This document shows, in pieces, positions 2,847-38,677 of a stretch of 64,000 nt of DNA. The notes under the pieces were generated by a model. The model had not been told where the DNA came from. It worked only from the letters and a program-made list of their open reading frames with translations, and did not search any database. Origin of the DNA: Devosia litorisediminis (GTDB taxonomy: Bacteria; Pseudomonadota; Alphaproteobacteria; Rhizobiales; Devosiaceae); NCBI RefSeq assembly GCF_018334155.1, contig NZ_JAGXTP010000001.1:2170001-2234000 (forward strand), written 5' to 3'. The stretch's first letter is position 1, and each line of letters opens with the position of its first letter. The position numbers were made by a program, and so were the translations under genes.

Positions 2847-2951
2847 CCTGGTCGGGCGTTTTGCGGGTCTGGACACCGGAGTCCTGCTGATTCATTGTTC
2901 GTTAAGGGCAAATCGGGTCGGACTACCACCCCCCACAAGACGGAGACACTT

Positions 2952-22907: not shown

Positions 22908-23663
22908 TCAGGCCTGCGCAATATCGCCCTTGAGCCCCTTGCGCAGGAAGATCACTGCCAGCGCCTCCATGATCAGATGGCCCGCTGAGCCGCCATCTAG
23001 CGTTGGCAGGTCAATGCCGAGTACCTGCGCCAGCCCGGCCAGCAGCATCAGGGCGGCCGTGATGTAGGTCTTGTAGCCGTTCAGGATATCCATGGTCTGT
23101 CTCCGTTTGGTGATGGATGGGGCGGCACCGGCAGCGTCCAGCGCTGCCTGCCGAATGGCCGTGACGCGGGCCGACCAGCCCTTGCCGAAGGTGGCGAAAC
23201 TGGCAAGGCGCGTGAGAAAGGACATGCGACGATCGCACAGCGCATTGATCAGGGTGGCAGCCCCTTCAAGCGCTATACGGGTTTTGAGCGCGCCCAGGGT
23301 CAGCGGCCCGATTGCGCCGTCGACCAGCACGCCCAGGTCCCCCTGCAGCGTCCGGATAGCCCGGTCGGGACCGGAATTGACGGCAAAATCAAACAGCGCC
23401 AGGTCAAGACCGGGTGGCATCTGATCGGCATTGACCCGGCTCCAGTAGCCCGCCCGGTAGATACGCGCGGCTTCAGCGCGTCCCAGCCCCTGCACATCAG
23501 CCTTGGGTAGCGCCCACCAGGGCGAAACATTGCGCCAGCGGGCCAGCGTCTTGCGGGTAATGCCCAGATTGGTGGCGCCGCCCGGATCGCGCGGATGATC
23601 GGCATAGCCGCCCTCGTGCTGCAGCACGGCGTTCAGGCAAATTTCAAATCGGGTTTCACTCAT
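22908..23663 (-). CDS. GTA-linked GH108 endolysin with fused holin-like tail
   Basis: Protein of 251 residues at the 3' end of the GTA cluster; its start overlaps the gp15-like stop by eight bases. Residues 5-90 match glycoside hydrolase family 108 muramidases, with catalytic Glu17 in LQHEGGYADHPRDPGGATN. Residues about 110-165 look like the paired peptidoglycan-binding domain (FDFAVNSGPDRAIRTLQ). The last 61 residues contain two hydrophobic segments (ITAALMLLAGLAQVLG and IMEALAVIFL) like a small holin. An internal ATG at 23093 with GGAG seven bases upstream could start the holin part alone. In R. capsulatus the GTA lysis genes are encoded away from the structural cluster, so this linkage is notable. 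Confidence 0.88.
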   Translation of the reverse strand: MSETRFEICLNAVLQHEGGYADHPRDPGGATNLGITRKTLARWRNVSPWWALPKADVQGLGRAEAARIYRAGYWSRVNADQMPPGLDLALFDFAVNSGPDRAIRTLQGDLGVLVDGAIGPLTLGALKTRIALEGAATLINALCDRRMSFLTRLASFATFGKGWSARVTAIRQAALDAAGAAPSITKRRQTMDILNGYKTYITAALMLLAGLAQVLGIDLPTLDGGSAGHLIMEALAVIFLRKGLKGDIAQA

Positions 23664-26600: not shown

Positions 26601-27387
26601 CCAGCGCGACGTGCTGCAGGTTCGGACAAAGCGCTGTCAGCTCGTCGATCGACCAGCTCCAGTCGCTGACATGGGGGAAGACGTGGGTATTCTCCCCCAC
26701 CGTTTCGCCCGGCCCGGCCAGTCGCACGCGCGGCGTCGGATCATAGCCGAACTCTGTCGCGCCGGGGATCACCGTTACCGCCCGAATATTGGCTTCGAGG
26801 TCGCCCACGACCCGGCAGAGCTCGACCGAGAGCTGGGGAATGCGATTGCCGAAACGGTTGAGCGGGAGTTGCTCGACCACCAGATAGCAAAGCCCGCGAT
26901 AGGCGGGCGCGGTGCCTTGGGTCGCTTCAATCAACCCGTCAGGCAATTGATCCTCAGTGCCCCGATAAAACCGCAGCGTCAGACCCTCGGGGTCAAGCAA
27001 TTGCCCGTCAGCCCAGATACGGCCGAGCCGATGCACTTCGCCCTCGCAGAAGGCCACGGCAAAGCTGGCGCCGACCGCGTCCTGGGTCTGATCGCCGCCA
27101 AAGCCTTTGGCCCCGGCATTTTCACCACCCAGCAGTTCCAGCTCGCGGGCCCAGATAATATTGCCTGCGAGCCGGCTCCAGCCAAACAGACGCGGCACCG
27201 CCCCGCCTTCGCTGGACCCCTGCAGCCGAATGTCGACGCCGCCCGTCTCGGGCTTTTCACCAAACAGCGCATTGTCGAGCGCACTGCCAGCCAACGCGCC
27301 CAGCGCCCGGCCGATGGTGGCACCAATGGGCCCGCCAACCAGCCCGCCGACAGCCTGTCCAGCCAGCGAAAGCGCGAGAGTGGCCAT
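23656..27387 (-). CDS. GTA host-specificity megaprotein (RcGTA gp15-like, TIM-barrel tail protein)
   Basis: Largest gene of the GTA cluster, 1243 residues, close to the family length of about 1300. It forms the tail tip and central fibre that contacts the recipient cell. The N-terminus has glycine-rich membrane-active repeats (GQAVGGLVGGPIGATIGRALGAL). The middle (about 430-720) is the GTA TIM-barrel-like domain, recognisable from VDALIIGSEMVGI, FFHLDPLWASANIDAVGIDN and KPIWLTELGCGAVDKGANQPN. The C-terminal part (about 780-1240) matches the rcc01698-like phage-tail region. It is complete without frameshift. Confidence 0.93.
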   Translation of the reverse strand: MATLALSLAGQAVGGLVGGPIGATIGRALGALAGSALDNALFGEKPETGGVDIRLQGSSEGGAVPRLFGWSRLAGNIIWARELELLGGENAGAKGFGGDQTQDAVGASFAVAFCEGEVHRLGRIWADGQLLDPEGLTLRFYRGTEDQLPDGLIEATQGTAPAYRGLCYLVVEQLPLNRFGNRIPQLSVELCRVVGDLEANIRAVTVIPGATEFGYDPTPRVRLAGPGETVGENTHVFPHVSDWSWSIDELTALCPNLQHVALVVAWFGDDLRCGQCSIGPRVEAAHRPMLDTDWSVAGLARGDVPVVSSHNGSAAYGGTPSDSAVLAAIADLKARGLSVTLYPLIMMDVPTDNMLPNPYGGAAQPSYPWRGRITCDPAPGQPGSPDQSAAASAQVASFAAAHRLMALHYAGLAVAAGGVDALIIGSEMVGISTVRGAGNSFPFVDALVSLASDVRAIVGPDTKLTYAADWSEYAGYQPDGEKFFHLDPLWASANIDAVGIDNYMPLADWRDGTGHADASSSDTGHDLAYLQGNIAGGEGYDWFYASTADRLSQIRTPISDGAYGEPWVWRFKDIANWWSQPHHDRPNGVRSGTPTAWVPGAKPIWLTELGCGAVDKGANQPNIFGDDKSAESGRPYLSSGLPDPLIQRQVLRAHQAHWRDGGNNPPGMLDTDRIYHWSWDARPYPAFPALSAVWSDGVNHRNGHWLTGRLGGLSSDELASAIATAHGVELQAQPALPFVSGYALTRVTTARDALEPLIAVAGQGLVNRPTGLHLGNAAHGSAALLAPDELAHGEAANLLRRRGDPAELPGRLALSFVDRERDYLTGTVTAVAQDDGPLTTQAVGFVLDGAAARLSAERLLDGQAARRETLEFALSQHQLALEPGDLVEIDGLAEGPFEIAEIRDGLMRRVTAHTLVTKTAQAVGADQPVRGGSGTAVRAVPLVTLAHLPPLPDNPGRSRLLLAGYASPWPGTLQLVDETTGASVLNLDRRGYLGTLATALEPGPRSLWDNGHSLEVLLHAGHLAAAEPLAVLAGSNRIAVQSDAGSWEVIGFAEASLIAPGRYRLAKLLRGLQGSDPGMGSAAIGQRVVVLDSRAASLPVEPGWLGETRSFRIYAGSSDLVGIEETVVVDADPALPLPPVHLRAIRGDSGDITLTWVRRSRADADGWGVAQTTLEHAPEAYRVTILDGPTLKRVIEAENAAATYASADQTADFGAPATSFSFTIAQLSPVLGAGHAAVGEFNE

Positions 27388-27419
27388 GAGATATTCCTGT
27401 GATTGAGGATAAAGGCTGC

Positions 27420-27851
27420 CTAGTCCTCAGCAAGGCACCCCGGAAACCGGAACCGCCCCGCGACCCGGCGCGCCCAGGCTTCGGTCAGGTTGGCCTCAAC
27501 AACGCCGAGCCGCTCCTGCGCGTGGATAAACCGCGTTGGCGAAATCAGGATGCCGCAATGCTTGGGTTCGTGCCCGGCCAGCCTGAACAGCACCACCTGC
27601 CCGGTTCCCAGCGTGCCATGCTCGACCAGCAGCAGCGCTTCAGCTGCCACCCGCAGGGCCCCGGCATTCAGCGGATCGCGCAGATCGGCGCGATAGGGCG
27701 GCACCGCCATGGGTTCGCTGCCATACAGCGCCCGCCACACACCGCGCAGCAGGCCCAGGCAATCGCACCCTGCCCCAATTGTCGCCGCCTGATGCCGATA
27801 GGGCGTGCCCAGAAAGGCGCGCGCTGCCGTGACCACCGCATCGGGGTTCAC
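27420..27851 (-). CDS. GTA NlpC/P60 peptidoglycan peptidase (RcGTA gp14-like)
   Basis: Cysteine peptidase of 143 residues carried in the tail baseplate, where in RcGTA it opens the recipient wall during DNA entry. The NlpC/P60 motif GCDCLGLL contains the nucleophile Cys31, and His98 in GHEPKHCGI is the likely catalytic base. I chose the GTG at 27851 because it overlaps the stop of the preceding gene by four bases (GTGA), as with other junctions here. The upstream in-frame stretch lies inside that gene. Confidence 0.92.
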   Translation of the reverse strand: MNPDAVVTAARAFLGTPYRHQAATIGAGCDCLGLLRGVWRALYGSEPMAVPPYRADLRDPLNAGALRVAAEALLLVEHGTLGTGQVVLFRLAGHEPKHCGILISPTRFIHAQERLGVVEANLTEAWARRVAGRFRFPGCLAED

Positions 27852-28738
27852 GGCACCACCGCCCGTCCATCGAGCGCGTCGCCATTGCGCGGATGGCGCA
27901 GCACGTAGTCGCTGCCCGGAATATGCGGGAAGCCACGAAAATTGACCGCATTGTCGAACTTGGCCTGACAGGTGGAAAAGCGTCGGTCGCAACCCGCAGT
28001 GACGCCGAACGTATCGCCCACCGCCACCCAGTCGCCTATCCGGGTGCTGAACGCCAGCACATCCGCACTGCCCAGCCGCGCATGGTTCACCACCGCGTCG
28101 CTTAGACCATCGCGTTTGCCATCGCTCCACAGCACCGTGCCAAAGCTGAACCAGCCCTCAGCAAAGCCCTCCAGCCCGGTCACGACCGCGCGATAGGGAT
28201 CATCCAGTGCCGTCACCGTGGCAGAGCCCTGCAGGCTGGGCATCGCCAGCGTCACCCCACAGCGCGCATCGCCCACACGGGCATCGCACAGGCTCTGATA
28301 GATCCGGCCATGCGTCGCGTTAAGCCCCTGCTGGGCCGAGCGCAGTTCGGCACGAAATACCCCGTCCTCGCGCACAACCTCGCCAATGCTGTCGCGCCGC
28401 AGCAGCAGGCGCTGGCTCACATCGCTCCAGTTCACCCGCCAGGTCTGAACCTGGGCGCCATCATAGCGCCCGAGCAGAATATCGTCTTCGCTGATCACCT
28501 CGGCGCTGAGCACGCCGAGCACCTCGCTGGTCTGCACCTGCGCGCCCAACCGCGCCGGCACCTCGCTGCCATCGAGCCCATTGGCCGGCGTATAGTCTGT
28601 GCCATCAAAACTCAGAACCCGGTCATGATCGGTAAAGCCGAGCACCACGCCATCGCCCCGCGTCAGCTTCCAGCAATGGCACAGCGTGGTCTCGCTCTGC
28701 GCCAGATGCGCCGCCAGCCCGATATCGAGCGTTCTCAT
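27848..28738 (-). CDS. GTA baseplate hub protein, DUF2163 (RcGTA gp13-like)
   Basis: Protein of 296 residues of the DUF2163/phage BR0599 family, known as the tail hub in RcGTA. Family features include the N-terminal CHCWKLTRGDGVVLGFTDHD with conserved cysteines and the C-terminal AGCDRRFSTCQAKFDN and FRGFPHIPG. The conserved cysteines fit the iron-sulphur site reported for the RcGTA hub, though this is from memory. The start overlaps the DUF2460 gene stop by four bases and the stop overlaps the peptidase start. Confidence 0.93.
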   Translation of the reverse strand: MRTLDIGLAAHLAQSETTLCHCWKLTRGDGVVLGFTDHDRVLSFDGTDYTPANGLDGSEVPARLGAQVQTSEVLGVLSAEVISEDDILLGRYDGAQVQTWRVNWSDVSQRLLLRRDSIGEVVREDGVFRAELRSAQQGLNATHGRIYQSLCDARVGDARCGVTLAMPSLQGSATVTALDDPYRAVVTGLEGFAEGWFSFGTVLWSDGKRDGLSDAVVNHARLGSADVLAFSTRIGDWVAVGDTFGVTAGCDRRFSTCQAKFDNAVNFRGFPHIPGSDYVLRHPRNGDALDGRAVVP

Positions 28739-29355
28739 GGCAGAATCTCCACTAGCGGAATGCTGGGCACTTCGGCACCATCGAAGCTGGTCAGTTCGAC
28801 ATCGAGCCGGTCGGTGTCAAAGCGGACCGGCACGTCAAACAGAAACCCGGCGGTGACCGCCACACCCAGCCCCGGCGCCATATCAAAGCTGACCAATCCC
28901 GTGGTCAGATCAACCGTCCAGCCACTGAGCTGCTCCGCCCCGTCGAGCGCCACCCGCACCGAACCCGATACGGGCCGCGTGATGGGCCGCAGATAGGGAT
29001 CAAAATCAGCGCCATAGCGCTTGGTCAGTGCAAAGCCGGTCTGCGCCCCGTCCCCGGTGCCGATCGCCTGATCCAGCGGGCCTGGCATTGTCCCCGCACT
29101 GGAGAAGTCGAGCCCATCATGCCACAGAAAGCCATGCAGCCGGCCACGCCGCTCCTCGAAGAAAGCCAGCACCGCCGCCATATCGGCGCGTGATTTGACG
29201 CCATAACCCGCATTGTAGCGCCGCCGCGAATAGTGCCAGCGTCCATTGCGCTGCTCACCACCACCGGCCAGCGTGACCACATCGGTTCTGCGCTCCGGCC
29301 CACCCCGCGCCCCCAGCGCGACATCAAGCGGGAAACGGATGGAATGAAAGGCCAT
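28735..29355 (-). CDS. GTA distal tail protein, DUF2460 (RcGTA gp12-like)
   Basis: Protein of 206 residues of the DUF2460 family, the distal tail ring of RcGTA. Recognised by the N-terminus MAFHSIRFPLDVALGARGG, the central YNAGYGVKSRADMAAVLAFFE and the C-terminal FDVPVRFDTDRLDV. The ATG at 29355 is the family start. The open frame continues upstream into a palindromic repeat and is not coding there. This is one of few GTA junctions with a real gap (130 bases). Confidence 0.93.
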   Translation of the reverse strand: MAFHSIRFPLDVALGARGGPERRTDVVTLAGGGEQRNGRWHYSRRRYNAGYGVKSRADMAAVLAFFEERRGRLHGFLWHDGLDFSSAGTMPGPLDQAIGTGDGAQTGFALTKRYGADFDPYLRPITRPVSGSVRVALDGAEQLSGWTVDLTTGLVSFDMAPGLGVAVTAGFLFDVPVRFDTDRLDVELTSFDGAEVPSIPLVEILP

Positions 29356-29377
29356 GAAGATCTCCAACTGCTGCGCA

Positions 29378-29482
29378 CCCCCACCCAACCTCCCCCGGAA
29401 GGGGGAGGTTGGTGAAAGGTGCTCGATCTTGGTTCCGCCTCCGGGCCATCCCTCCCCCTTCAGGGAGAGGTTAGGTGGGGTA
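29378..29482. repeat. GC-rich palindromic repeat, copy A (between GTA gp11 and gp12 genes)
   Basis: Two hairpins in tandem: one built from acctcccccggaagggggaggt (about 29388-29409) and one from ccctcccccttcagggagagg. The outer ends (cccccacccaacct and aggttaggtggggt) are also inverted. It fills nearly the whole gap between the tape-measure and distal-tail genes. Related units occur at 31011 and 32467. I interpret it as a mobile REP- or MITE-like intergenic element common in rhizobial genomes. Confidence 0.8.
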
Positions 29483-29485
29483 TTG

Positions 29486-30040
29486 CTAGCTCGCGCGCGT
29501 GCCGCGCTTGACGGCGCGCAACAGCATGGCGCTGAGCTCAGCCTCGCTCGCGGCGAAGCTGCGGGCATCACTGGCCGTCACATTGAACGTCACATTGATC
29601 GCGCCGCCTCCACCACCGCTACCAACGCCCAGCCGACCGTCACTGCCGCGCTGCAGTGGCAACACCGCTTCAGCGCCTGCCTCGCCCATCACGCCCAGTC
29701 CCTGCCCGAGCGGGAAATAGCTCGGGCTGGCGATCACGCCGCCCTTGGCGAAGGGTGTCACCCCGGCCAACGCCGGATTGGTCGCGGCAAAAAGATTACC
29801 CACCATCCCGCCGACCAGATCGCCCAGCGGCCGAATGGCGGCCTTGAGCGCGATATCGGCAAAGCTCTTGGCGATGTCGCCGAGCAGGGATTTGAACGAC
29901 TTGCCGTCGCTGAGGGCCCCGCGAAACGCATTGCTGATGGAGCGGGCAACGCCATCGGCCAGATCGCCAATGCGGTCGAGTTCGAGCGACACATCGCTCA
30001 ATTCGTCACGAAAATTGTCGGCAAACAGATCATCGGCCAT
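29486..30040 (-). CDS. GTA tape measure protein (RcGTA gp11-like)
   Basis: Protein of 184 residues, short like the roughly 220-residue RcGTA protein, in keeping with the short siphovirus-like tail. The N-terminal half is amphipathic helix (FRDELSDVSLELDRIGDL), then a hydrophobic segment (LKAAIRPLGDLVGGMVGNLF). The C-terminal half contains the tail-protein signature GVIASPSYFPLGQGLGVMGEAG and a polyglycine stretch before INVTFNVTASD. The start overlaps the preceding chaperone gene by 11 bases. Confidence 0.9.
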   Translation of the reverse strand: MADDLFADNFRDELSDVSLELDRIGDLADGVARSISNAFRGALSDGKSFKSLLGDIAKSFADIALKAAIRPLGDLVGGMVGNLFAATNPALAGVTPFAKGGVIASPSYFPLGQGLGVMGEAGAEAVLPLQRGSDGRLGVGSGGGGGAINVTFNVTASDARSFAASEAELSAMLLRAVKRGTRAS

Positions 30041-30221
30041 CGGGGAAACGCTCCATCAGATCACTGAGATCGCCACGGCTGAGCGGACCGGTCTGCGCGC
30101 CCATAATGGCGCCCCAGGCCGCTGCCAGTTCACGCGGCGTCAGCGCCCAGAAATCGCGGGCTGGCAGGCGCAGCACGCCCAGCCCAAAACCCATCGCCGC
30201 GTCCCAGGGAAAGGGCGTCAT
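30030..30221 (-). CDS. GTA tail assembly chaperone, rcc01693 family (gp10.1-like)
   Basis: Small protein of 63 residues with WDAAMGFGLGVLRLPARDFW and LTPRELAAA, the pattern of the rcc01693 family encoded between gp10 and gp11 in RcGTA. It overlaps both neighbours (4 bases with gp10-like, 11 with the tape measure gene). In siphoviruses this position holds tail assembly chaperones; chaperone function here is from family knowledge. Confidence 0.88.
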   Translation of the reverse strand: MTPFPWDAAMGFGLGVLRLPARDFWALTPRELAAAWGAIMGAQTGPLSRGDLSDLMERFPDGR

Positions 30222-30532
30222 GAGCCTTCTCCAAAGGTCGCCTTAAGCAGTCGTGCAGCAATTTCGGCGGCGCCCTTGAGCCCGCCTTCAATACTCAACC
30301 GTGCCAGATCATCATCGCTGAGTTCATTGCCACCGCCGCGCAGGCCGGCGCCCAGAATGGCGGTCAGATCGGCAGCAGAAACCCGCCCGCCAGAAAAGCG
30401 CTCTGCCAGTCCCACCAGATCCCCGGCCTGCAGCCGGGTCTCCAGCTCGGCCAGCGCGCCCAGCGTCAGGCACAGTGTCAGCGTCTCGCCGCCAATGACG
30501 GCGTCAATTTCTCCGCGTTGGGTGATGGCCAT
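30218..30532 (-). CDS. GTA gp10-like tail assembly protein
   Basis: Protein of 104 residues of the gene transfer agent gp10 family. It begins MAITQRGEIDAVIGGETLTLCLTLGALAELE and has the helical body (DLTAILGAGLRGGG) seen in this family. It stands between the major tail protein and gp10.1-like genes, exactly as in R. capsulatus, and probably acts as a tail chaperone. Its stop overlaps the next start by four bases. Confidence 0.9.
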   Translation of the reverse strand: MAITQRGEIDAVIGGETLTLCLTLGALAELETRLQAGDLVGLAERFSGGRVSAADLTAILGAGLRGGGNELSDDDLARLSIEGGLKGAAEIAARLLKATFGEGS

Positions 30533-30556
30533 GTTCGTGGTCCTTTCGGTAAATGC

Positions 30557-30970
30557 CTAGAGCGCCGCAAAGCTGAGCTCGCCCGCGCTTTCCAGCGCCA
30601 GGTCGAACGTCACCTCGCCGGCATGGTCGCCGGAGAATTCCAGCGCCACGATCTGGAACGGCCCGGTGACGGTGCCGAAATCGGGGATGATCAACTGCCA
30701 GTCGCGCAGCGTGCCGGCAAAGAACAGGGCGCGGATCTGCGCGTCTGAAGCGCCATCCTTGAATACCCCGGCACCCGACACCGAGGCGCGTTTCACCCCA
30801 CCGCCAGCCAGCAATTCACGCCAGCGCCCGGCGCTTTCCTGATCGGTGGTGTCGACGGCCGCAGCATTGAACGCCAGCGCCCGCGTGCGCAGCCCCGCCA
30901 CGGTGAGAAAACTGCCCGACCCGGTCTGGTCGAGCTTGAGCAGCATGTTGCTGCCGCTTTGAGCGGCCAT
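30557..30970 (-). CDS. GTA major tail tube protein (TP901-1 family, gp9-like)
   Basis: Protein of 137 residues that polymerises into the tail tube. Recognised by MAAQSGSNMLLKLDQTGSG at the N-terminus, then LAFNAAAVDTTDQES, WRELLAGGGVKRASVSGAG and the C-terminal ALEFSGDHAGEVTFDLALES, all typical of the TP901-1-like major tail proteins. A 162-base gap with palindromic repeat copy B separates it from the upstream gp8-like gene, so its mRNA level could be set independently. Confidence 0.93.
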   Translation of the reverse strand: MAAQSGSNMLLKLDQTGSGSFLTVAGLRTRALAFNAAAVDTTDQESAGRWRELLAGGGVKRASVSGAGVFKDGASDAQIRALFFAGTLRDWQLIIPDFGTVTGPFQIVALEFSGDHAGEVTFDLALESAGELSFAAL

Positions 30971-31010
30971 GAGATTTGCCTTTCAAGAATTGCCACGGCG
31001 CCGTGCTAGC

Positions 31011-31115
31011 CACCCCACCCTCAATCCCTCCCATCAAGGGGAGGGAGGCGCCAGATCGGATGTCCGTGTTCATCGTCTCCCTCCCCCTTGTGGGGAGGGA
31101 TCAAGGGTGGGGGTG
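31011..31115. repeat. GC-rich palindromic repeat, copy B (between GTA gp8 and gp9 genes)
   Basis: Outer arms caccccaccctcaatccctc and gagggatcaagggtgggggtg are inverted, and inside lie ccctcccatcaaggggaggg and ccctcccccttgtggggaggg hairpins. The structure (two hairpins inside a larger inverted repeat, about 105 bases) is the same as copy A, but the sequence differs in detail. It sits just upstream of the major tail gene and could affect its transcript. Confidence 0.78.
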
Positions 31116-31132
31116 ACGCTACGGACGCTGCC

Positions 31133-31531
31133 CTACCCCGCTGCACTGAACACCCGGATCGCCACGGCGGCCCGCGCCAGCCCGGTATCGTCGTCGATCA
31201 CCGTGTCAGTGCGCACATGGCCGATATGGCTGAGCGCCAGTCCCGGTGCGTCAAGCGCCAGTGTCACCGCTACCACGCGCTCGGCCATGTCGAGCGCGCG
31301 CTGTCGGCTGGGTTGATCGCCCCAGCAATGCAGCTGCAGGCGGTGTTCCTGCCCCGGTGCCAGATCAACATTGCGCGTCAACACGTCGTGGCGGGCAATC
31401 AGCACATAGGGCGGCGTTCGCCCCCCGGGCGCAGCATCGAAGACGCCGTCATCGCCAATGATTGCGCCCAGCGCGACATCGGCTTTGAGCGCGGCGACCA
31501 ATGCCGTCTGCAGAACGGTGATGGGGTGCAT
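31133..31531 (-). CDS. GTA tail terminator, DUF3168 (RcGTA gp8-like)
   Basis: Protein of 132 residues of the DUF3168 family, which caps the tail tube at the head-tail interface. It has the N-terminal HPITVLQTALVAALKADVAL, the GDDGVFDAAPGGRTPPYV segment and the C-terminal GLARAAVAIRVFSA characteristic of the family. Three bases separate it from the gp7-like gene. Confidence 0.92.
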   Translation of the reverse strand: MHPITVLQTALVAALKADVALGAIIGDDGVFDAAPGGRTPPYVLIARHDVLTRNVDLAPGQEHRLQLHCWGDQPSRQRALDMAERVVAVTLALDAPGLALSHIGHVRTDTVIDDDTGLARAAVAIRVFSAAG

Positions 31532-31534
31532 GGC

Positions 31535-31876
31535 CTACCCCGTGAAGCTGGTTTCGCTGCAGGCGCAGCTGAGATAGGCGCGGCGGCCATTGAGGTCGGC
31601 GGCGCTCACCACATCCAGGTCACGCCCGCGATAAAGAATGCGGTCACCCGGTTTGATATCGGTGCGAAAACGCAACACCACGGCGTGCGAAATCTCCACC
31701 GCCCGGCCATCGGCGCTGGTGCCCTGCCGCCCGCGCAGCGTGCGTACCCTTGCCCACACGGCGGTCAGCGGCACAAACACCGTGCCATGGCCACCCGCGC
31801 CATCGGCGGCCATTTCGCGCCTTTTGAGCTGCACCCGGTCGGTCAGTGTGCCAATGGGCGGAACGCGCTCGCTCAT
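31535..31876 (-). CDS. GTA head-tail adaptor/closure protein (RcGTA gp7-like)
   Basis: Protein of 113 residues of the phage head-closure (SPP1 gp16/HK97 gp7) type. Visible are GTLTDRVQLKRRE, GTVFVPLTAVWARVRTLRG and FRTDIKPGDRILYRGRDLDVV, typical of this beta-barrel family. Its start overlaps the gp6-like stop by four bases. Confidence 0.92.
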   Translation of the reverse strand: MSERVPPIGTLTDRVQLKRREMAADGAGGHGTVFVPLTAVWARVRTLRGRQGTSADGRAVEISHAVVLRFRTDIKPGDRILYRGRDLDVVSAADLNGRRAYLSCACSETSFTG

Positions 31877-32439
31877 AGCCGCACCCGTTTGTGAGGCGCC
31901 ACCAACCGGTCAAAGCCGCTGGGCACCACAGCGCCCGAGCCCGCCACGATCACCGCATCGCGATGCTCAAACCAGTAACCGACCAGCACCAGCAGCGCCT
32001 GGCGGATATCGGCAGGCACATCCTCGGGCTCGGTCCCGAAGCCGGCGACATAGTCGACTTCAATCCCCTGCCGCTCCCGCAGCACCGGCATGCCCGCCAC
32101 ACTGGCTGGCAAGAGCAGCCGGTCGGGCTCGCTCAGAAACTGCGCCAGAGGCACTTCATGCCCTGCGCCATCACCATCGTACGCGGTGATCTCGGTAACG
32201 CTGATGAACGGGCTCACCGGCAGTTTCACCTGCCGATCTTCTGGCCAGGCGTCCAGCACCACGCGCCAGCTCTGCGCCAGCAGTGCCTGCCCGGTCACGC
32301 CCTCGACATGCAGCCGTGCTGCGCCAATCAATGTGGCGATCAGCCCGTCCTCGGCACTGTCATCGACCTTGAGAAAAGCCCTGGCCTCGGCAAGCGAAAC
32401 CGGCTCCTCCGCGGGTCCCGCGAGAAGATAAGACGTCAT
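31873..32439 (-). CDS. GTA head-tail connector (RcGTA gp6-like)
   Basis: Protein of 188 residues of the HK97 gp6-like connector family, which forms the adaptor ring under the portal. Recognised by EEPVSLAEARAFLKVDD, then DGLIATLIGAARLHVEGVTGQ, and VPADIRQALLVLVGYWFEHRDAV. I chose the ATG at 32439 because the family begins MTSYLLAGPAEEPVSL; the open frame upstream runs into repeat copy C and is not coding. Confidence 0.92.
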   Translation of the reverse strand: MTSYLLAGPAEEPVSLAEARAFLKVDDSAEDGLIATLIGAARLHVEGVTGQALLAQSWRVVLDAWPEDRQVKLPVSPFISVTEITAYDGDGAGHEVPLAQFLSEPDRLLLPASVAGMPVLRERQGIEVDYVAGFGTEPEDVPADIRQALLVLVGYWFEHRDAVIVAGSGAVVPSGFDRLVAPHKRVRL

Positions 32440-32466
32440 TTTGTTTGCCTTTTGTTGGGTTGCGAC

Positions 32467-32583
32467 AACCCCCTCCCAGCCTCCCCCTGAAAAGGGGGAG
32501 GAGCGAGCTCGGTGGTCCTTATGCGATTTCGCCCCGCCCACCACGCGGTTCCTCCCCCTGCCAGGGGGAGGTTAGGTGGGGGT
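32467..32583. repeat. GC-rich palindromic repeat, copy C (between capsid and connector genes)
   Basis: Hairpins cctccccctgaaaagggggagg (about 32480-32501) and cctccccctgccagggggagg (about 32551-32571) flank a 49-base spacer, with outer arms aaccccctcccagcctccccc and gggggaggttaggtgggggt. It fills the gap right after the major capsid gene. The stable RNA hairpins could protect the capsid message from 3' degradation or reduce read-through into the connector gene (inference). Confidence 0.8.
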
Positions 32584-32591
32584 CAGCGTTG

Positions 32592-33812
32592 TCAGCTCGC
32601 GGCGAACTTCAGCAGCTTGATCGCGTCATAATCGGCGATCCCGCCGCCGACGCGCTTGGTGGTGTAGAACAGCACATAAGGCTTGGCGCTGAAGGGGTCG
32701 CGCAACACGCTGACGCCTTGGCGGTCCACGATCAGATAGCCGCGGCGGAAGTCACCAAAGGCAATCGAGAGCGCATTGGCCGCGATATCGGGCATGTCCT
32801 CGGCCTCGACCAGATCAAAGCCCATGAAACGCGCCTTGCCATCAGCCGTCGCGGCGGGCTGCCACAGATAATTGCCGTCGGCATCCTTGAGCTTGCGCAG
32901 CGTGCCCTGCACCTTGCGGTTCATCACCCAGGATGCGTTCTGGCGGTAGCCGGCCTTGAGCGCATAGACCAGATCGATCAGCACATCACTGGCATTGGCA
33001 GTAGGCAGCGCCCCGGCCGAGCCGGTGGCGACATAGCCCAGATTGCCCCAGCTCCAGCTGGCTTCCGCCACCGTGGTGGCATCGAGAAATCCGGTCGGCT
33101 TGTTGACGCCATCGCCCGATACGAAAGCCGTGGTTTCCTGCGCCGCGAAGGCCGCGTTGACCTCGTCGGCAATCCACTGCCCCACATCGACCGCCGCGTC
33201 TTCGAGGAAGGCCGATGTCGCCGCCGGCATTGCGTAGAGCTCCATGGTCGGATAGCTCAGCTCGGCCAGGGTCTGGCTGCCGGTAATGGGGCGCGCCGCG
33301 GTCTCACCAACCCAGCCCACTGCGGGCCCCGTCACCGAGATGGGGCGCTTATAGACCGAGCCGGACACCTGCCGTACACCGGCAATGGCGCGAATGGGCG
33401 ACACCGCCGTCATCAGTCTTGTGATTTCGGTCTCGGTTTCGGGCGGCACGACATAGCCGCCATCGGCATTGACGCCCACCGAGAGCGCCTTCTCTTCGCC
33501 GCGCTTCACATAGGAGGCGAAAGCCTGCTTGTATTCGCCATCGACCGGCATTCCCTTGCCGTCGAGCTGCGGGCGGGCCCGCTCGATCAGCGCGCGATCC
33601 ATCGCCGCCTTGTTGGTGTCGAGCACGGCATTGAGCCGGTCGAGCTTGCCTTCGAGCAGGCCATCGGCGCTGCCGCGCTTTTCCAGCTCGCCCAGGCGCT
33701 GGTCATTGGTGGCCTTGAACTCTTCAAAGGCGGTCGAGAATTCGGCGAACAGCGCGGCAATATCGCCCTGCGCGCCGGCCTTGGTTTCAAGGCCGTCACT
33801 GGTGGTGGTCAT
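32592..33812 (-). CDS. GTA major capsid protein (HK97 fold, gp5-like)
   Basis: Protein of 406 residues. The first 100 or so residues form a charged coiled-coil scaffold region (FEEFKATNDQRLGELEKRGSAD), expected to be removed by the prohead protease. The body begins near DGGYVVPPETETEI and shows HK97 features such as VGWVGETAARP, DEVNAAFAAQETTAFVSGDG and WVMNRKVQGTLRKLKD. Length agrees with the 398-residue RcGTA capsid precursor. It is followed by repeat copy C. Confidence 0.96.
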   Translation of the reverse strand: MTTTSDGLETKAGAQGDIAALFAEFSTAFEEFKATNDQRLGELEKRGSADGLLEGKLDRLNAVLDTNKAAMDRALIERARPQLDGKGMPVDGEYKQAFASYVKRGEEKALSVGVNADGGYVVPPETETEITRLMTAVSPIRAIAGVRQVSGSVYKRPISVTGPAVGWVGETAARPITGSQTLAELSYPTMELYAMPAATSAFLEDAAVDVGQWIADEVNAAFAAQETTAFVSGDGVNKPTGFLDATTVAEASWSWGNLGYVATGSAGALPTANASDVLIDLVYALKAGYRQNASWVMNRKVQGTLRKLKDADGNYLWQPAATADGKARFMGFDLVEAEDMPDIAANALSIAFGDFRRGYLIVDRQGVSVLRDPFSAKPYVLFYTTKRVGGGIADYDAIKLLKFAAS

Positions 33813-33822
33813 ACAAATATCC

Positions 33823-34311
33823 CTATCGGTTGCGGATGGTGTGGGTGGCGGCGGCGATGGCCGCGCCGGTGCTCAAGCCCGAGGGCGCAATGCGTGCGTC
33901 CTCCAGCATGGGAAAGGTGACGATCGAGATTTCAAACAGATCGATCTGCCAGAGTTTGCGCAGTCCGCCAGCGCGGCTTGCCCGCACGGTGCGAAAGCCA
34001 ATCGAGAGTCCGTCCAGCGCCCCGTTTTCGATCAGCCGTCTGAGTGCATCGGCGCGCGGCACGCCGGGCACCAGCCGTCCGGTCACGAACAGGCCATGCC
34101 CATCTTCGCCAATGGTCTTCCAGGTGCCGACCGGCTCCTTGGGGTCATGCTGAAACAGCAGTCTGATGCGCTTGCCGCGGCGCGCCAGGCTCTGGGTGAA
34201 GGCGCCCGGCATCACCACATCGCCCCCGGCATCGCGCCGGTTGAACAGGCTGGCATAGCCGGAAAAGCGCCCGTCGCTATCGATGGGAATGGCGCTTGAA
34301 ATCGCGCCCAT
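33823..34311 (-). CDS. GTA prohead protease (HK97 family, gp4-like)
   Basis: Serine protease of 162 residues that trims the capsid precursor. The triad is visible: His55 in LLFQHDPKEP, Ser103 in LDGLSIGFR and Glu127 in DLFEISIVTFPM. The ATG at 34311 shares one base with the stop of the small upstream gene (TGATG), so translation is coupled. The capsid gene starts ten bases after its stop. Confidence 0.94.
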   Translation of the reverse strand: MGAISSAIPIDSDGRFSGYASLFNRRDAGGDVVMPGAFTQSLARRGKRIRLLFQHDPKEPVGTWKTIGEDGHGLFVTGRLVPGVPRADALRRLIENGALDGLSIGFRTVRASRAGGLRKLWQIDLFEISIVTFPMLEDARIAPSGLSTGAAIAAATHTIRNR

Positions 34312-34439
34312 CAGCGCTTTCCACTCGGCTTGGCCGCACTCTTGCCACCGGGTTTAGGGCTGGCCAGCGTACCGGCCAAATTCCAGGCAAACTGCCGGAA
34401 GACCTGTTGCGCTTTGGGAAAATTGTTCTTTTTTGCCAT
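34311..34439 (-). CDS. Small basic GTA-cluster protein, 42 residues
   Basis: Short gene encoding a 42-residue, strongly basic peptide starting MAKKNNFPKAQQVFRQFAWN and ending in a Lys/Gly/Ser-rich tail (AAKPSGKR). It ends TGATG on the prohead protease start, and its own start lies four bases after the stop of the next upstream gene. The tight packing and Lys/Arg content support a real gene. Its position corresponds to the small gene between portal and protease in some GTA clusters. I do not know its function; a capsid DNA- or scaffold-binding role is conceivable. Confidence 0.62.
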   Translation of the reverse strand: MAKKNNFPKAQQVFRQFAWNLAGTLASPKPGGKSAAKPSGKR

Positions 34440-34443
34440 GGGC

Positions 34444-34632
34444 TTAGTCATCCTTTCTGAAAAGCCGATTCAGATTGGCGATTTCCTGCACGAAGTCGTT
34501 GAAGTGTTGATTCACCCGCGCCATCTCACGCAGGCTCCACACAAGAAGGGCACTGGCCCCACTGGCCCACAGGAACAGCGCGAGATGGGCCAGATCCCCC
34601 CGCTCAATGACGGTGCGCGTCAGTTCGTCCAT
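34444..34632 (-). CDS. Small single-pass membrane protein of GTA cluster (gp3.5-like position)
   Basis: Protein of 62 residues: a short N-terminal helix (MDELTRTVIERGDLAHLAL), one transmembrane segment (ALFLWASGASALLVWSLREM) and a charged C-terminal helix (FNDFVQEIANLNRLFRKDD). It stands between portal and prohead protease, where R. capsulatus has the small orfg3.5. I recall similar small membrane proteins in rhizobial GTA loci but cannot name a family. A strong AGGAG (aaccactgcag side excluded; ggagaaat) precedes the ATG. Confidence 0.78.
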   Translation of the reverse strand: MDELTRTVIERGDLAHLALFLWASGASALLVWSLREMARVNQHFNDFVQEIANLNRLFRKDD

Positions 34633-34676
34633 GGATATTTCTCCTCGATAACCACTGCAGGTGCTTCAAACTCGGT

Positions 34677-34763
34677 CGTCACCCTCGGGCCTGACCCGAG
34701 GGCGTTGTACTGCCGGAGCGTCCGTGCAAGTGCAGTCCACTCGGGTCTGGCCCGAGGGTAACG
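34677..34763. repeat. Inverted repeat of the TCGGGxxTGACCCGAGG type
   Basis: Two hairpins, ccctcgggcctgacccgaggg (34682-34702) and actcgggtctggcccgagggt (about 34739-34759), facing one another across a 35-base spacer and themselves arranged as an inverted pair (gtcaccctcggg ... cccgagggtaac). This is a class of dispersed palindromic element common in rhizobial genomes. It marks the outer edge of the insertion between portal and protease genes. Confidence 0.72.
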
Positions 34764-34820
34764 GGCAGTGCGTGTGGAAGACCCTTTGTTCCCCAGACAA
34801 ATGCCCGCTAGAATGTCGAC

Positions 34821-35081
34821 ATGAGCACTTTGACGCTTGAGACAGCACCGCTTGCCGTGGACCTCGTCGTCGACAGCACCAGCTTGCGCGTCAGCCTAGA
34901 TGACGGCCGCGAGCTCGCCGTGCCACTGGCCTGGTTTCCCCACCTGCGCGACGCGTCAGACGCTGACCGCGCCAACTGGCGGCTGTTCGGCCGCGGTGAC
35001 GGCATTCACTGGCCAGCCCTTGATGAAGACATTTCCGTGCGCGGTCTGCTCGCCGGCCACCGTCAGGCCAACGCCGCCTAA
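34821..35081 (+). CDS. DUF2442-family protein, opposite strand within the GTA cluster
   Basis: Protein of 86 residues of the DUF2442 family, recognisable from SLRVSLDDGRELAVPLAWFPHL and WRLFGRGDGIHWPALDEDISVRGLLAG. It is the only plus-strand gene inside an otherwise minus-strand GTA cluster, so it is an acquired gene. DUF2442 genes are often paired with DUF4160 genes in toxin/antitoxin-like couples; no partner is present here. Its stop codon TAA lies exactly at the end of the duplicated portal fragment (35078), which shows that these segments were joined by recombination. Confidence 0.85.
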   Translation: MSTLTLETAPLAVDLVVDSTSLRVSLDDGRELAVPLAWFPHLRDASDADRANWRLFGRGDGIHWPALDEDISVRGLLAGHRQANAA

Positions 35082-35190
35082 ATCCCCAACATCGCCCGCT
35101 TCTCCGCATCGCTGAGAAACTCCGCATTCCCCACCCGGCTCCACAGCGCCGCGCGGTCTTCGGTCAGGGCTTGGTCGTCATTGAAATCCG
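35078..35190 (-). pseudogene. Duplicated 3' fragment of the portal gene
   Basis: Reading on the minus strand gives APDFNDDQALTEDRAALW followed by SRVGNAEFLSDAEKRAMLGI and a stop. The true portal gene ends with APDFDGVEALAEDRAALW and SRVGSAEFLSDAEKRAMLGI. By eye the two DNA copies differ at about 13 of 115 positions. The fragment has no start and its frame is not continuous with the gene at 35206. It is best read as the displaced original portal end, left behind when the module at 35206-36239 came in with a new portal 3' end. Confidence 0.9.
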
Positions 35191-35205
35191 GCGCAGGAAA
35201 AGCGC

Positions 35206-35856
35206 TCAGACCCAACTCTCGCGCAACTGCGCCAGGCTTGCGGCGGCCGCTTGGCTGCGGTCGGCCACCTGTTGTGTTCGCATTTTCCGGGCCGCCATGT
35301 CGGCCAGAAAAGCGGCAACATCATCGAGCGAAGCGGGTCGCTCCAGCAGCGCCACCAAAGCCGGCAGATCGTCGCGGTATTCACGCAATCCTGGCGGATT
35401 GTGCCTGGCGTCAATCGGGTCCCATTCCCGGTGCAGAATCGCATTGACGCCGTTGAGCTTGTCAGCGGCCCTGACAATCGCCTCCGCGCCCGGCAGCAAT
35501 TGTGCCTTGAAGAATTTCGGGTGGGTAAGCAGCAGGGTAATTTCTGCCTTGCTCAAGATGCTGTCGGGATAGTCCGGTCGTGCTGCAGACTTGCGATCCA
35601 GCCCGAGGGTGACGTCATACTGGTCCGCCGGCAGTCGGGCCGTTGACACGATCTCGATATAACCACCATCGGCATAGGTCCGGGTTCTGCCGTCGCGCGC
35701 AAACCTGTAGGCTATCTGTGTGGTCACGTGACGCGCCGAGAAGCTGCTACTGTCGGCCCTGTAGACGAGCAGCAGTTTCTCCTGGCCGCCGGCACCCAGC
35801 CCAAAGATCACGTCGCCGACTGTGATGGCGTTGAGGGCCTGCACTCTTAATGGCAT
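35206..35856 (-). CDS. Unrecognised cargo protein in GTA insertion (possible immunity partner)
   Basis: Protein of 216 residues starting MPLRVQALNAITVGDVIFGL. AGGTGAGG lies seven bases before the ATG at 35856, and the start is eight bases after the stop of the preceding cargo gene, so the two form an operon. Residues 1-90 look beta-rich. Residues about 136-192 (ILHREWDPIDARHNPPGL, EYRDDLPALVALLERPAS) resemble a small acidic helical domain I have seen in many unannotated bacterial proteins, but I cannot name it. No catalytic motif or membrane segment is visible. An immunity or partner role rests only on gene order. The flanking portal duplication shows that it is an acquired gene. Confidence 0.75.
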   Translation of the reverse strand: MPLRVQALNAITVGDVIFGLGAGGQEKLLLVYRADSSSFSARHVTTQIAYRFARDGRTRTYADGGYIEIVSTARLPADQYDVTLGLDRKSAARPDYPDSILSKAEITLLLTHPKFFKAQLLPGAEAIVRAADKLNGVNAILHREWDPIDARHNPPGLREYRDDLPALVALLERPASLDDVAAFLADMAARKMRTQQVADRSQAAAASLAQLRESWV

Positions 35857-35864
35857 CGAAAGCC

Positions 35865-36239
35865 TCACCTTGACTGGGTCTGCTCGAATGGTCGGAGCGT
35901 TTCTTCTTGCTCCCCGTGGGGCAGACCCTGAATTCCCAGAAACTTTATGGCGCAATCCCGACAAAGGTTCTTGCCGAAGATCGTGTACATTCCCGTCGTA
36001 CCAAATGTCCCTCCCAGCTGGCAGCCACCGGAGAACCCATCGCAACGGGAGCCCGCCGCAACATGCAAGCGGTCAGTGACCCACTGCCCGCCTTCCGGTG
36101 TGCCCTTTGGCGCTCGTGGCTGATCGGCACGGTAGCGCTTCTCGAGCGCCCGGGCCAGCATGCCAAGCTTCATCTCGAGCGTGGCCAATCGGACGGCAGC
36201 GATCAAGGCACGCAGCCGGATTTGCAGAAAACGCGACAT
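35865..36239 (-). CDS. Unrecognised cargo protein with GGQW linker motif and four-cysteine tail
   Basis: Protein of 124 residues directly downstream of the portal gene (eight bases from its stop; GAGG overlaps that stop). Residues 1-35 form one amphipathic basic helix (MSRFLQIRLRALIAAVRLAT). Residues 41-53 read PRAPKGTPEGGQW, a motif I associate with linkers ahead of variable C-terminal domains in rhizobial phage and GTA proteins. The tail has Cys66, Cys73, Cys93 and Cys96, possibly a zinc or disulphide knot. The helix plus linker could dock the protein on the GTA particle, and the variable tail could be an effector. That is inference; no enzyme motif is visible. Confidence 0.75.
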   Translation of the reverse strand: MSRFLQIRLRALIAAVRLATLEMKLGMLARALEKRYRADQPRAPKGTPEGGQWVTDRLHVAAGSRCDGFSGGCQLGGTFGTTGMYTIFGKNLCRDCAIKFLGIQGLPHGEQEETLRPFEQTQSR

Positions 36240-36247
36240 GACGAACC

Positions 36248-37402
36248 TCAGATCCCCAACATCGCCCGCTTCTCCGCATCGCTGAGAAACTCCGCGCTGC
36301 CGACCCGGCTCCACAGTGCCGCGCGGTCTTCGGCCAGGGCTTCGACGCCGTCGAAATCCGGTGCAATCGTCGCCCCGTCGAAGGCCGGGGCCAGCCAATT
36401 GCTGAGTTCATCGGCCACGCGGACCACCAGAGGGATCAGGGTCTGCCGCCACAGGGCGCGGTTGGCTTCGGCCAGATTGGCGTAGGTATTGTCGCCAGGA
36501 ATCCCCAGCAGCATGGGCGGCACGCCGAAGGCCAGGGCTATGTCGCGGGCGGCGGCGTGCTTGGCGTCGATGAAATCCATGTCGCGGGGGCTCAGCGCGA
36601 TGGTCTTCCAGTCCAGCCCGCCTTCGAGCACCATGGGCCGCCCGGCATTGCCCGCCCCGGCGAAATTGGCTTCGAGCTCATCCTTGAGCCGGTTGAACTG
36701 GTCTTCGGTCAGCGTGCCCGCCGCCATGGAATAGACCAGCGCCCCGCTGGGCCGCGCTGCATTGTCGAGCAACGCCTTGTTCCACTGCCCGGCGGCGTTG
36801 TGGATATCGAGGCTGGTCTGGGCGGCGTCGAGCGGCGCCATGCCGTAGTGATCGTCGAGTGGGTGAAACAGCGCCATGTGCAGCACCGCGGGCAGCGGCT
36901 CACTGTCCTGGCGCAGGCGCTGGCTGCGCCCGCCCACGGTATAGTCATAGGCCATCGGCCAGCCATCGGCGCCGGCCACCACCTTCATGCGGTCGGGCCG
37001 CAGGCAGAACAGCCCCCGCACCGCACCATCAATCATGCCCGCCTGCAGATAGGCGTTCCCCGCCGTCTGCAGATAGGCATAGACCGCCTCGAGCAGCTCG
37101 CCGCCCGATTGGCGCGCATTGGGCCGCCCCAGCAGTTCACTTAGCGGATGCTCCTCCACGCGCTGGCCGTTCACGCTGACCACCAGCGGCACCCGATTGG
37201 CCGTCTCGGCGATCAGCCGCACGCAGCGATAGACCACCGGGTTGCGCGCAAAGCCCTGATTGACCAGGCTGGCAAAGCCGCGCTGGCTCCAGTTTGCCGC
37301 GCCCAGCTGGTTGAGGCTGAGCAGGCTGTGCCCGGCAAAATTCTTGCGTTCATCAGGCGCGTTTGTTCGCCCGCCCAGCAGGCGGTTGATCCAGTTCGGC
37401 AT
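36248..37402 (-). CDS. GTA portal protein (HK97 family, gp3-like)
   Basis: Dodecameric portal subunit of 384 residues through which DNA enters and leaves the capsid. Family segments visible are FARNPVVYRCVRLIAETANRV, PLSELLGRPNARQSG, GNAYLQAGMIDG, and FGVPPMLLGIPGDNTYANLAEANRALW near the C-terminus. Length agrees with the RcGTA portal (about 396). Its last roughly 110 bases are repeated at 35078-35190. The gene itself is complete, so the inserted module did not disrupt it. Confidence 0.95.
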   Translation of the reverse strand: MPNWINRLLGGRTNAPDERKNFAGHSLLSLNQLGAANWSQRGFASLVNQGFARNPVVYRCVRLIAETANRVPLVVSVNGQRVEEHPLSELLGRPNARQSGGELLEAVYAYLQTAGNAYLQAGMIDGAVRGLFCLRPDRMKVVAGADGWPMAYDYTVGGRSQRLRQDSEPLPAVLHMALFHPLDDHYGMAPLDAAQTSLDIHNAAGQWNKALLDNAARPSGALVYSMAAGTLTEDQFNRLKDELEANFAGAGNAGRPMVLEGGLDWKTIALSPRDMDFIDAKHAAARDIALAFGVPPMLLGIPGDNTYANLAEANRALWRQTLIPLVVRVADELSNWLAPAFDGATIAPDFDGVEALAEDRAALWSRVGSAEFLSDAEKRAMLGI

Positions 37403-37420
37403 GGTTTGGTTCCTTGAACT

Positions 37421-38677
37421 CTAAAGCCCGCGCACCCGTGGCTGCACATCGTTGAGCAACAGCTCGGTGATTGCCCAGACCAGCGCATCGACCCGGTCGG
37501 GCGAATGGCCATCGCTCTTGCCGTCAGCGCCAAAGCTGCACATTTCGTCTTCCAGCGCACTCAGCCCGGCGAGATGGGCCACCAGCCCGCGCCCATAGAG
37601 CGCTGCAACCGGTTCGGCGCGCAGCCATTTGCCGCGATTAGCGCGTACCGGTCGTACCGGTACCTTGGGATCGATCTGCGCGATCACCGAGGCCACGAGA
37701 TCGCCGCCCTGATTGACCTCGGCCACAATGCCGTCGGCCTGATGAGCATGAAACGCCGCCACGGCGCGTCGGGCCCAGCGCAGCGGCGATGCGGCGCTCA
37801 GGGTGCAATCCTCGAGCACCACCGCCTCCTCCCCCTGGCGTCCGGCAACAACAATGCCGCAGGCATCGGATCTGGCGTGGCCGGTCACCGGCGGGTCCAC
37901 CGCCACTACAATGCGCTCCAGAGCCAGACTCTGGGGCGGTCGAAACATGTTGCGCTGCCACAGCGCGCCGGGCAGATCCTCGATCAGTTCGCCATCCAGC
38001 TCCTGACGGCCCAGCACCGTGCCGCGATAGCGCGCCACCACCGCATCAAGAAATTGCGGCGCCAGCTGCGCAGAATTCTCGATGGTGGCCATGCGCGTCA
38101 CCACGGTCTGCGGGTCGGCCAGCAGGCGCTTGAGCAGCCGCGTCGGTCGCGGTGTCGTGGTCGCCATCTGCTGCGGTCGTTCGCCCAGCCGCAGCCCAAA
38201 TTGCAGCATGTCCCAGGCGTCTTCCGCGCGTGGCCATTTGCCGATCTCGTCGCACCAGGCGGCGGCAAATTGGGGGCCGCGAAAGCGATCCGGGTCGGAA
38301 GCCGAGAGCAGCGTGGCTTCGACCCCGTTGGGCCAGATCAGCTGGTGCCCGCGCAAGACGGGGCGCTCCAGCTCGGGATGCACGTTGAGCAGCCCGCTTT
38401 CGCCCCGCACCATGATCGCCAGCGCCTCGGCGATGGTTTCACCCACCAGGGCAATCGGTCCGATCCGCTGCCGGACCAGCCCGCGCACCCATTCGGCGCC
38501 TGCCCTTGTCTTGCCCGCGCCGCGCCCGCCCATCAACAGCCAGGTGGTCCAGTCCCCCTGCGGCGGCCGCTGCTTGGGCAGCGCCCATTTGTTCCAGTCA
38601 TAATACTGCGCCTCGACCTGATCATCGGTCTTGGCGGCGACTTCGGCCTGCGCCTCAGCGCTTCTTGAACTGATCAA
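37421..38677 (-). CDS. GTA terminase large subunit (gp2-like)
   Basis: Packaging motor of 418 residues. The ATPase has Walker A GGRGAGKT at residues 50-57 and Walker B AAAWCDEI with Asp143/Glu144. The nuclease half contains VVAVDPPVTGHARSDACGIV near residue 259 and DRVDALVWAITELL at the end. In GTAs this enzyme packages host DNA by headful cutting without strong sequence choice. The frame opens with TTG at 38677, overlapping the small terminase stop by 23 bases; no later ATG precedes the ATPase. It is complete. Confidence 0.95.
   Translation of the reverse strand: MISSRSAEAQAEVAAKTDDQVEAQYYDWNKWALPKQRPPQGDWTTWLLMGGRGAGKTRAGAEWVRGLVRQRIGPIALVGETIAEALAIMVRGESGLLNVHPELERPVLRGHQLIWPNGVEATLLSASDPDRFRGPQFAAAWCDEIGKWPRAEDAWDMLQFGLRLGERPQQMATTTPRPTRLLKRLLADPQTVVTRMATIENSAQLAPQFLDAVVARYRGTVLGRQELDGELIEDLPGALWQRNMFRPPQSLALERIVVAVDPPVTGHARSDACGIVVAGRQGEEAVVLEDCTLSAASPLRWARRAVAAFHAHQADGIVAEVNQGGDLVASVIAQIDPKVPVRPVRANRGKWLRAEPVAALYGRGLVAHLAGLSALEDEMCSFGADGKSDGHSPDRVDALVWAITELLLNDVQPRVRGL

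Follow-up and report, generated by a model that had tools for sequence, protein, structure and literature searches.

In the available portions of two accounts (PMC5576092, PMC3482391), the MuF polymorphic toxins of temperate phages are encoded directly after the portal gene, have a variable toxic C-terminus, are followed by a small gene and are proposed to be loaded into the phage head. A comparable arrangement is presented here for two genes, orfA and orfB, that lie in a gene transfer agent (GTA) cluster of Devosia litorisediminis, within a stretch of 64,000 nucleotides (NZ_JAGXTP010000001.1, positions 2,170,001 to 2,234,000; henceforth, the window). As in MuF toxins, orfA directly follows the portal gene (8 nt separate the portal stop from the orfA start), its C-terminus is variable and a small gene comes behind. 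Unlike MuF toxins, it lacks a MuF domain match in Pfam and PHROG, its host is an RcGTA-type cluster with a GTA_TIM domain instead of a temperate phage, and in some relatives of the window cassette the portal itself is the carrier.

The CdiA/Rhs-type polymorphic toxins, in the available part of PMC3482391, combine a constant front with an exchangeable tail that has its own immunity gene. The cassettes described here share with them this organization, including an immunity-like gene, as well as displaced ends and the tail families PF18431 and PF18451. In CdiA/Rhs-type toxins it is old tips that are displaced upon exchange, whereas here the front is a GTA head element and it is a GTA gene whose end has been displaced. 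Phage effectors fused to portal or MuF proteins (ART, Nudix and 2H enzymes) similarly join an enzyme to a head protein and are thought to be packaged and injected, according to the available part of PMC9503650; these serve infecting phages, whereas the present case involves GTAs, CdiA-type toxins and an adjoining immunity-like gene. RcGTA, as covered in the accessible part of PMC7296036, shares with the window cluster the order TerL, portal, protease, capsid to g15 and the GTA_TIM and Rcc01698_C domains, but no toxin cargo is described there. An account of GTA-borne polymorphic toxins was not found in the open-access literature at title and abstract level, a scope outside which preprints and most subscription papers fall, and neither PMC5576092 nor the available part of PMC3482391 uses the phrase "gene transfer agent".

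From the comparison of sequences that follows, it seems probable that orfA and orfB make up a polymorphic toxin-immunity cassette within the head module of the Devosia GTA, and that the particle carries and delivers it. Five points are established at the sequence level: the location of the cassette, the exchange of tails, the displacement of gene ends, the presence of toxin domains in relatives and the fusion of portal and toxin in a GTA cluster.

A displaced portal end behind the cassette

The initial annotation of the window had placed two unrecognized genes behind the portal; the coordinates of all three genes were confirmed (Table 1), and neither orfA nor orfB matched a known family. It had also reported that the 3' end of the portal recurs behind them with about 13 differences in 115 bases, and indeed a direct repeat of 114 nt links 35082-35195 to 36252-36365 at 89% identity (101 to 102 of 114 nt identical; 101 of 114, with 13 differences, in codon register), the longest among 17 direct-repeat families in 33000-38500. 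Only the span of the copy, first given as 35190-35078, required correction to 35195-35078, stop included. Both copies terminate in DAEKRAMLGI and a stop, as had been noticed, the stop being TGA in the proximal copy and TAG in the distal one, and the opposite-strand DUF2442 gene (PF10387) ends, again as described, exactly on the stop codon of the distal copy. When the 300 nt preceding the portal end were compared by blast with the sequence following it in 53 Devosia GTA loci, the long repeat (114 nt) appeared only in the window locus, the four other matches spanning 15 to 30 nt.

In the cassette-free genome G074 (G, L and P numbers label genomes, loci and proteins, G000 being the Devosia genome that holds the window), the offset from DUF2442 to the portal end equals that at the distal copy of the window, with 3 nt between the aligned ends in each case, and the two junctions have TTTAGGCGGC in common; the distance is 4 nt in G027, nearly as in G074, and 155 nt in G022. 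At four positions the distal copy carries residues (N, D, Q and T) found in 0 of 52 other Devosia portals, three of these positions being otherwise invariant (V, E and A), and all residues of the proximal copy fall within the range of those portals, 42 of which are closer to the proximal copy and 6 to the distal one, with 4 ties. Because the DUF2442 junction is that of cassette-free G074 and residues have been lost only in the distal copy, the comparison supports the distal copy being a displaced and decaying remnant of the original portal end, still joined to its old neighbor, in agreement with the early proposal that a module had restored the portal end and displaced the original. The pattern fits a cassette that arrived together with an incoming portal end, although identity at the portal end pointed to no donor among the 52 other Devosia portals.

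Comparable displaced ends occur elsewhere. A second segment of g3.5 and the 42-aa gene that follows it is present in G038 (91% over 255 nt), and part of g3.5 is repeated in G053 (94% over 116 nt). In G196, from another family, a portal-linker-tail arrangement, with the portal match split over two frames, is followed by a 289-nt portal segment at 94.8%, and in the TerL-g15 cluster of G149 the protease is followed by a linker gene, which has an HNH-like end (by eye) and contains a stop, and then by a 236-nt copy of the protease end (92.4%).

Exchange of tails in Devosia and other Hyphomicrobiales

The protein encoded by orfA comprises a helix (residues 3-35, ~36135-36233), a GGQW linker (residues 36-53, ~36081-36134) and a Cys-bearing tail, here termed type 1 (residues 57-124, ~35868-36071). 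Its structural model (mean pLDDT 71) has a single helix at 3-35 and ends in a small Cys-bearing part, confidence being low at 46-62 and 70-80; that of OrfB (pLDDT 94) has strands followed by helices. At E values up to 1, orfA matched neither Pfam nor PHROG, so that a MuF domain was not found and kinship with it could only be very remote.

Seventy-five genomes of the soil bacterium Devosia were searched, with some portal match in 62, orfA-like sequence in 24 and orfB-like sequence in 16, and 53 GTA loci were compared, leaving out G032, G054 and G055, which hold portal fragments only. An orfA-like N-terminus, consisting of the helix and the GGQW linker, lies behind the portal in 20 of the 53 loci and bears at least six dissimilar tails, as anticipated by the initial annotation, which had predicted conserved flanks and this N-terminus with different tails; the opposite outcome that it had envisaged, with both genes but no repeat in all close relatives, was not observed. 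The type-1 tail is followed by orfB in 12 of 12 loci (G000, G010, G013, G015, G026, G036, G038, G043, G047, G057, G058 and G070), with a stop within the N-terminal part of orfA in G058 and, by eye, genes resembling the type-2 partner also after orfB in G036 and G047. A type-2 tail is present in G003, G046 (where the contig stops ahead of g3.5), G053 (where a g3.5 fragment lies between the portal and the orfA-like gene) and G073, and further types in G025, G037 and the first gene of G038; that of G012 was left untyped. The tail of G031, inside a TerL-g15 cluster, is a CdiA-type RNase (PF18431; 1.7e-11, 45.4 bits, cut-off 27). Two of the 53 loci, G030 and G051, keep a partner gene without a toxin gene.

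Identity was compared among 17 genes (G026 and G073 were dropped on failure of the linker pattern, and G012 and G058 were not entered). Pairs of different type (n = 88) average 54% identity in the N-terminus and, under forced global alignment, 25% in the tails, against 63% and 61% in pairs of the same type (n = 48), and the two best cross-type pairs share 47 of 53 N-terminal residues (89%) with dissimilar tails. On a portal tree of 50 rows, from which three split-portal loci were omitted, absence of the cassette requires 12 changes; 10 of 500 shuffles were as low, and absence is therefore partly inherited. Type 1 requires 9 changes (102 of 500 shuffles as low), and one starred group of the tree unites G013 and G036, of type 1, with G037, which has another tail. 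Taken together, these comparisons make a strong case for cassette exchange and reveal the constant N-terminus with exchangeable C-terminal domains by which polymorphic toxins are recognized.

The pattern is wider than the window alone could reveal. A profile of 14 N-termini found matches in 31 of 136 family genomes, in 53 of 397 at the level of the order and in 17 of 385 at that of the class, and GGQW proteins are present in GTA clusters of other Hyphomicrobiales. Forty regions, mostly around best-ranked matches, were taken from the order (37) and family (3) searches, the linker pattern missing the hit in L217, L222 and L230, and GTA genes are found in 19 of them. The linker gene lies between TerL and portal in G086, G090, G153 and G233, behind the portal in G104, G136, G413 and the second gene of G090, and between protease and capsid in G207, G241 and G271. 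In G486, a single open reading frame of 633 residues within a TerL-to-g15 cluster consists of portal (PF04860, 2e-87), linker and RNAse_A_bac (PF18431, 6.5e-13). A search with its residues 440-633 returned 30 proteins, of which 15 match both PF04860 and PF18431, 6 only PF18431, 8 only PF04860 and 1 PF18451. Portal parts 87-92% identical carry different tails in P0131, P0153 and P0154 (the last from Hyphomicrobium denitrificans 1NES1), and in P0146 and P0157, with short linker-adjacent matches remaining; the tail of P0152 has 27 residues. P0160 joins a short helical front and the same linker to a CdiA_C end (PF18451, 1.8e-10), and matches to MafB19-deaminase (G420) and AHH-nuclease (G241) fell under the curated cut-offs. 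The likeness to polymorphic toxins that had first been suggested is upheld: PF18431 and PF18451 tails follow the same linker, and portals are fused to toxin domains. Membership of orfA in the MuF family is not supported.

An origin in a named phage collection was considered and rejected: orfA had no match there at E up to 1, and none of the 1610 records matching the portal-RNase protein of G486 covered it to 80%, the 12 listed being portal-side matches.

Competing explanations and implications

A toxin-immunity nature of the cassette is likely and its delivery by the particle plausible, the latter by analogy. A constant front, made of helix and GGQW linker in Devosia or of portal and the same linker in Hyphomicrobium-like GTAs, would bear a C-terminal toxin open to exchange, and the immunity gene would adjoin it. 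An incoming portal 3' end and its cassette would have recombined into the resident portal, restoring the gene and shifting the old 3' end downstream, to decay there. Anchored by the helix or the portal, the toxin would probably become part of the particle and reach recipients with it, to the detriment of those without the matching immunity gene. Because the same linker fuses toxin domains to the portal in other GTAs, the Devosia helix may be a separate adaptor that fixes the toxin to the portal or within the head, and it is because of the analogy with polymorphic toxins that delivery and protection by OrfB are proposed; likewise, we infer the toxicity of the window's own tail, the immunity function of OrfB and packaging.

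Several observations weigh against this explanation. The cassette is missing from 31 of the 53 Devosia loci, and neither the orfA tail nor OrfB of the window matches known toxin or immunity families; in particular, orfA does not match the PF18431 profile at its curated cut-off. A toxin load would harm the recipients of GTA DNA. In favor of the explanation, median pN/pS (nonsynonymous to synonymous) values of 0.375 for orfA (36 pairs) and 0.396 for orfB (45 pairs), against 0.296 for the portal (36 pairs), fit selection maintaining the cassette genes, but are rough, since pS of these genes is near saturation. The linker is also found apart from GTAs: 21 of the 37 Devosia matches listed lie behind the portal and 16 away from it, G019 and G049 have linker matches in the absence of a portal match, 21 of the 40 linker regions hold no GTA genes, and a PF18431 linker protein (G358, 5.5e-18) stands in one such region.

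These last findings, together with free-standing GGQW pairs among Devosia housekeeping genes, also speak for the main rival explanation, namely that toxin-antitoxin-like cassettes lodge in a permissive hot spot behind the portal, act in the producer (through addiction, maintenance of the GTA cluster or abortive defense) and are never packaged. The portal/g3.5 interval is occupied in the cassette-free locus of G034 (L087, oriented 2856-3131) by a DUF1902 gene (PF08972, 25.2 bits, cut-off 22), which again suits a hot spot. We nevertheless regard this explanation as unlikely: the fusion of toxin to portal through the same linker in other GTAs counts against it, as against any classical producer-only module; the known tails, PF18431 and PF18451, are, going by their Pfam names, domains of delivered CdiA toxins; and in Devosia the scores of portal-adjacent and free-standing N-termini do not overlap (at least 73.9 against at most 52.2 bits), though on a profile built from the former. 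It is quite improbable, in turn, that OrfA is a structural or accessory GTA protein with fast-changing ends, such as a portal-binding head protein, with OrfB as its chaperone and no toxin in the window. The position of orfA in the head module, the lack of a known toxin match for the type-1 tail and conserved Cys residues that suggest a small metal-binding fold agree with such a role, but orfA is dispensed with in most Devosia loci, PF18431 is among the tails at the same place and the type-1 tail is also found on other N-termini (P0125, P0129). Finally, the second portal end might be an ordinary local duplication independent of the cassette. Direct repeats of at least 80 nt are as common in Devosia loci without a cassette (6 of 31) as in those with one (5 of 22), which weakens the argument from the repeat, but those overlapping GTA genes occur in 3 of 22 against 0 of 31, a small difference (one-sided Fisher ~0.07). 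With the old DUF2442 junction kept by the distal copy and with GGQW genes flanked by duplicated portal and protease ends, respectively, in G196 and G149, a duplication of this kind is hardly credible.

If the toxin-immunity reading is extended, the GTAs of many Hyphomicrobiales may be armed, with a toxin on or beside the portal that spares only recipients having the matching immunity gene; this generalization is possible, if doubtful. Were it true, gene transfer would be limited to kin, the GTA would at the same time be a weapon of phage origin and GTA-delivered DNA could spread cassettes, accounting for the displaced gene ends. It is an established puzzle of GTAs that producers lyse and only recipients seem to benefit. 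If the portal came with a toxin-immunity load, the cluster would gain a direct use in competition and a rule by which kin are recognized, and why GTAs are retained would become testable with defined genes. CdiA-type toxins would acquire a further route, borne by the portal, the exchange of cassettes would have left a record that can be read, and particles thought to be mere DNA carriers may then deliver toxins as well.

The host cluster and neighboring elements

The cluster that houses the cassette has the ordered TerL-portal-protease-capsid-tail genes and the GTA-type g15 of an RcGTA-type GTA, as which it is recognized here from its genes. Its Pfam domains comprise Terminase_6N/6C, Peptidase_S78, Phage_capsid, Phage_HCP, Phage_tail_2, DUF2460, Phage_phiJL001_Gp84_N, NLPC_P60, GTA_TIM (2.6e-132) and Rcc01698_C, besides PF04860 in the portal, and point to terminase, prohead protease, capsid, head completion, tail tube, baseplate hub and NlpC/P60 functions. 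The g-numbers follow gene order and are presumed.

Table 1. Coordinates of the GTA cluster, the cassette and adjoining features in the window
Feature	Position	Strand	Basis
RcGTA-type structural cluster, TerL to g15, housing the cassette	23656..38677	-	Pfam domains and gene order
TerL	38677-37421	-	Pfam
Portal gene (g3), intact	36248..37402	-	PF04860 2.8e-87; TIGR01537 1.3e-63
Proximal copy of portal 3' end, the working one	36252..36365	-	No private residue against 52 other portals
orfA, 124 aa, proposed toxin	35865..36239	-	Open reading frame; no family match
orfB, 216 aa, proposed immunity protein	35206..35856	-	Partner of type-1 orfA; no family match above cut-off
Putative displaced, decaying original portal 3' end, with stop	35078..35195	-	Repeat and codon-register comparison
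Convergent DUF2442 gene, putative old neighbor of portal end	34821..35081	+	PF10387 4.6e-22
g3.5-like 62-aa gene, downstream border of variable interval	34444..34632	-	tblastn conservation across Devosia GTA loci
Conserved small 42-aa gene after g3.5	34311..34439	-	Conservation across Devosia GTA loci
g15	27387-23656	-	Pfam

The gap between DUF2442 and g3.5 (34677-34763) contains a 35-nt inverted repeat, 80% complementary with a 17-nt loop, that resembles a REP-type element. In L089, L090 and L113 (G067, G066 and G062), repeats of 89 to 180 nt, outside GTA genes, are common to the TerL/portal and portal/g3.5 gaps. A GGQW gene lies between g13 and g14 in a GTA-like cluster of another family (L270 of G521, 1357-1959), and the head module is therefore not the sole site of such genes. 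In the window's own genome, a GGQW gene and its 115-aa partner stand by themselves among housekeeping genes (L133:4747-5555; G000:C3, ~254746-255554); the pair looks like a separate chromosomal module, and the two-gene sets of L135, L138 and L041 are similar to it by eye. Away from the GTA cluster of G053, a GGQW gene with a DUF4258 match under the cut-off (L134:4372-5116) has an 89-aa partner that resembles the C-terminal part of orfB (33% identity, E 3.1e-4).

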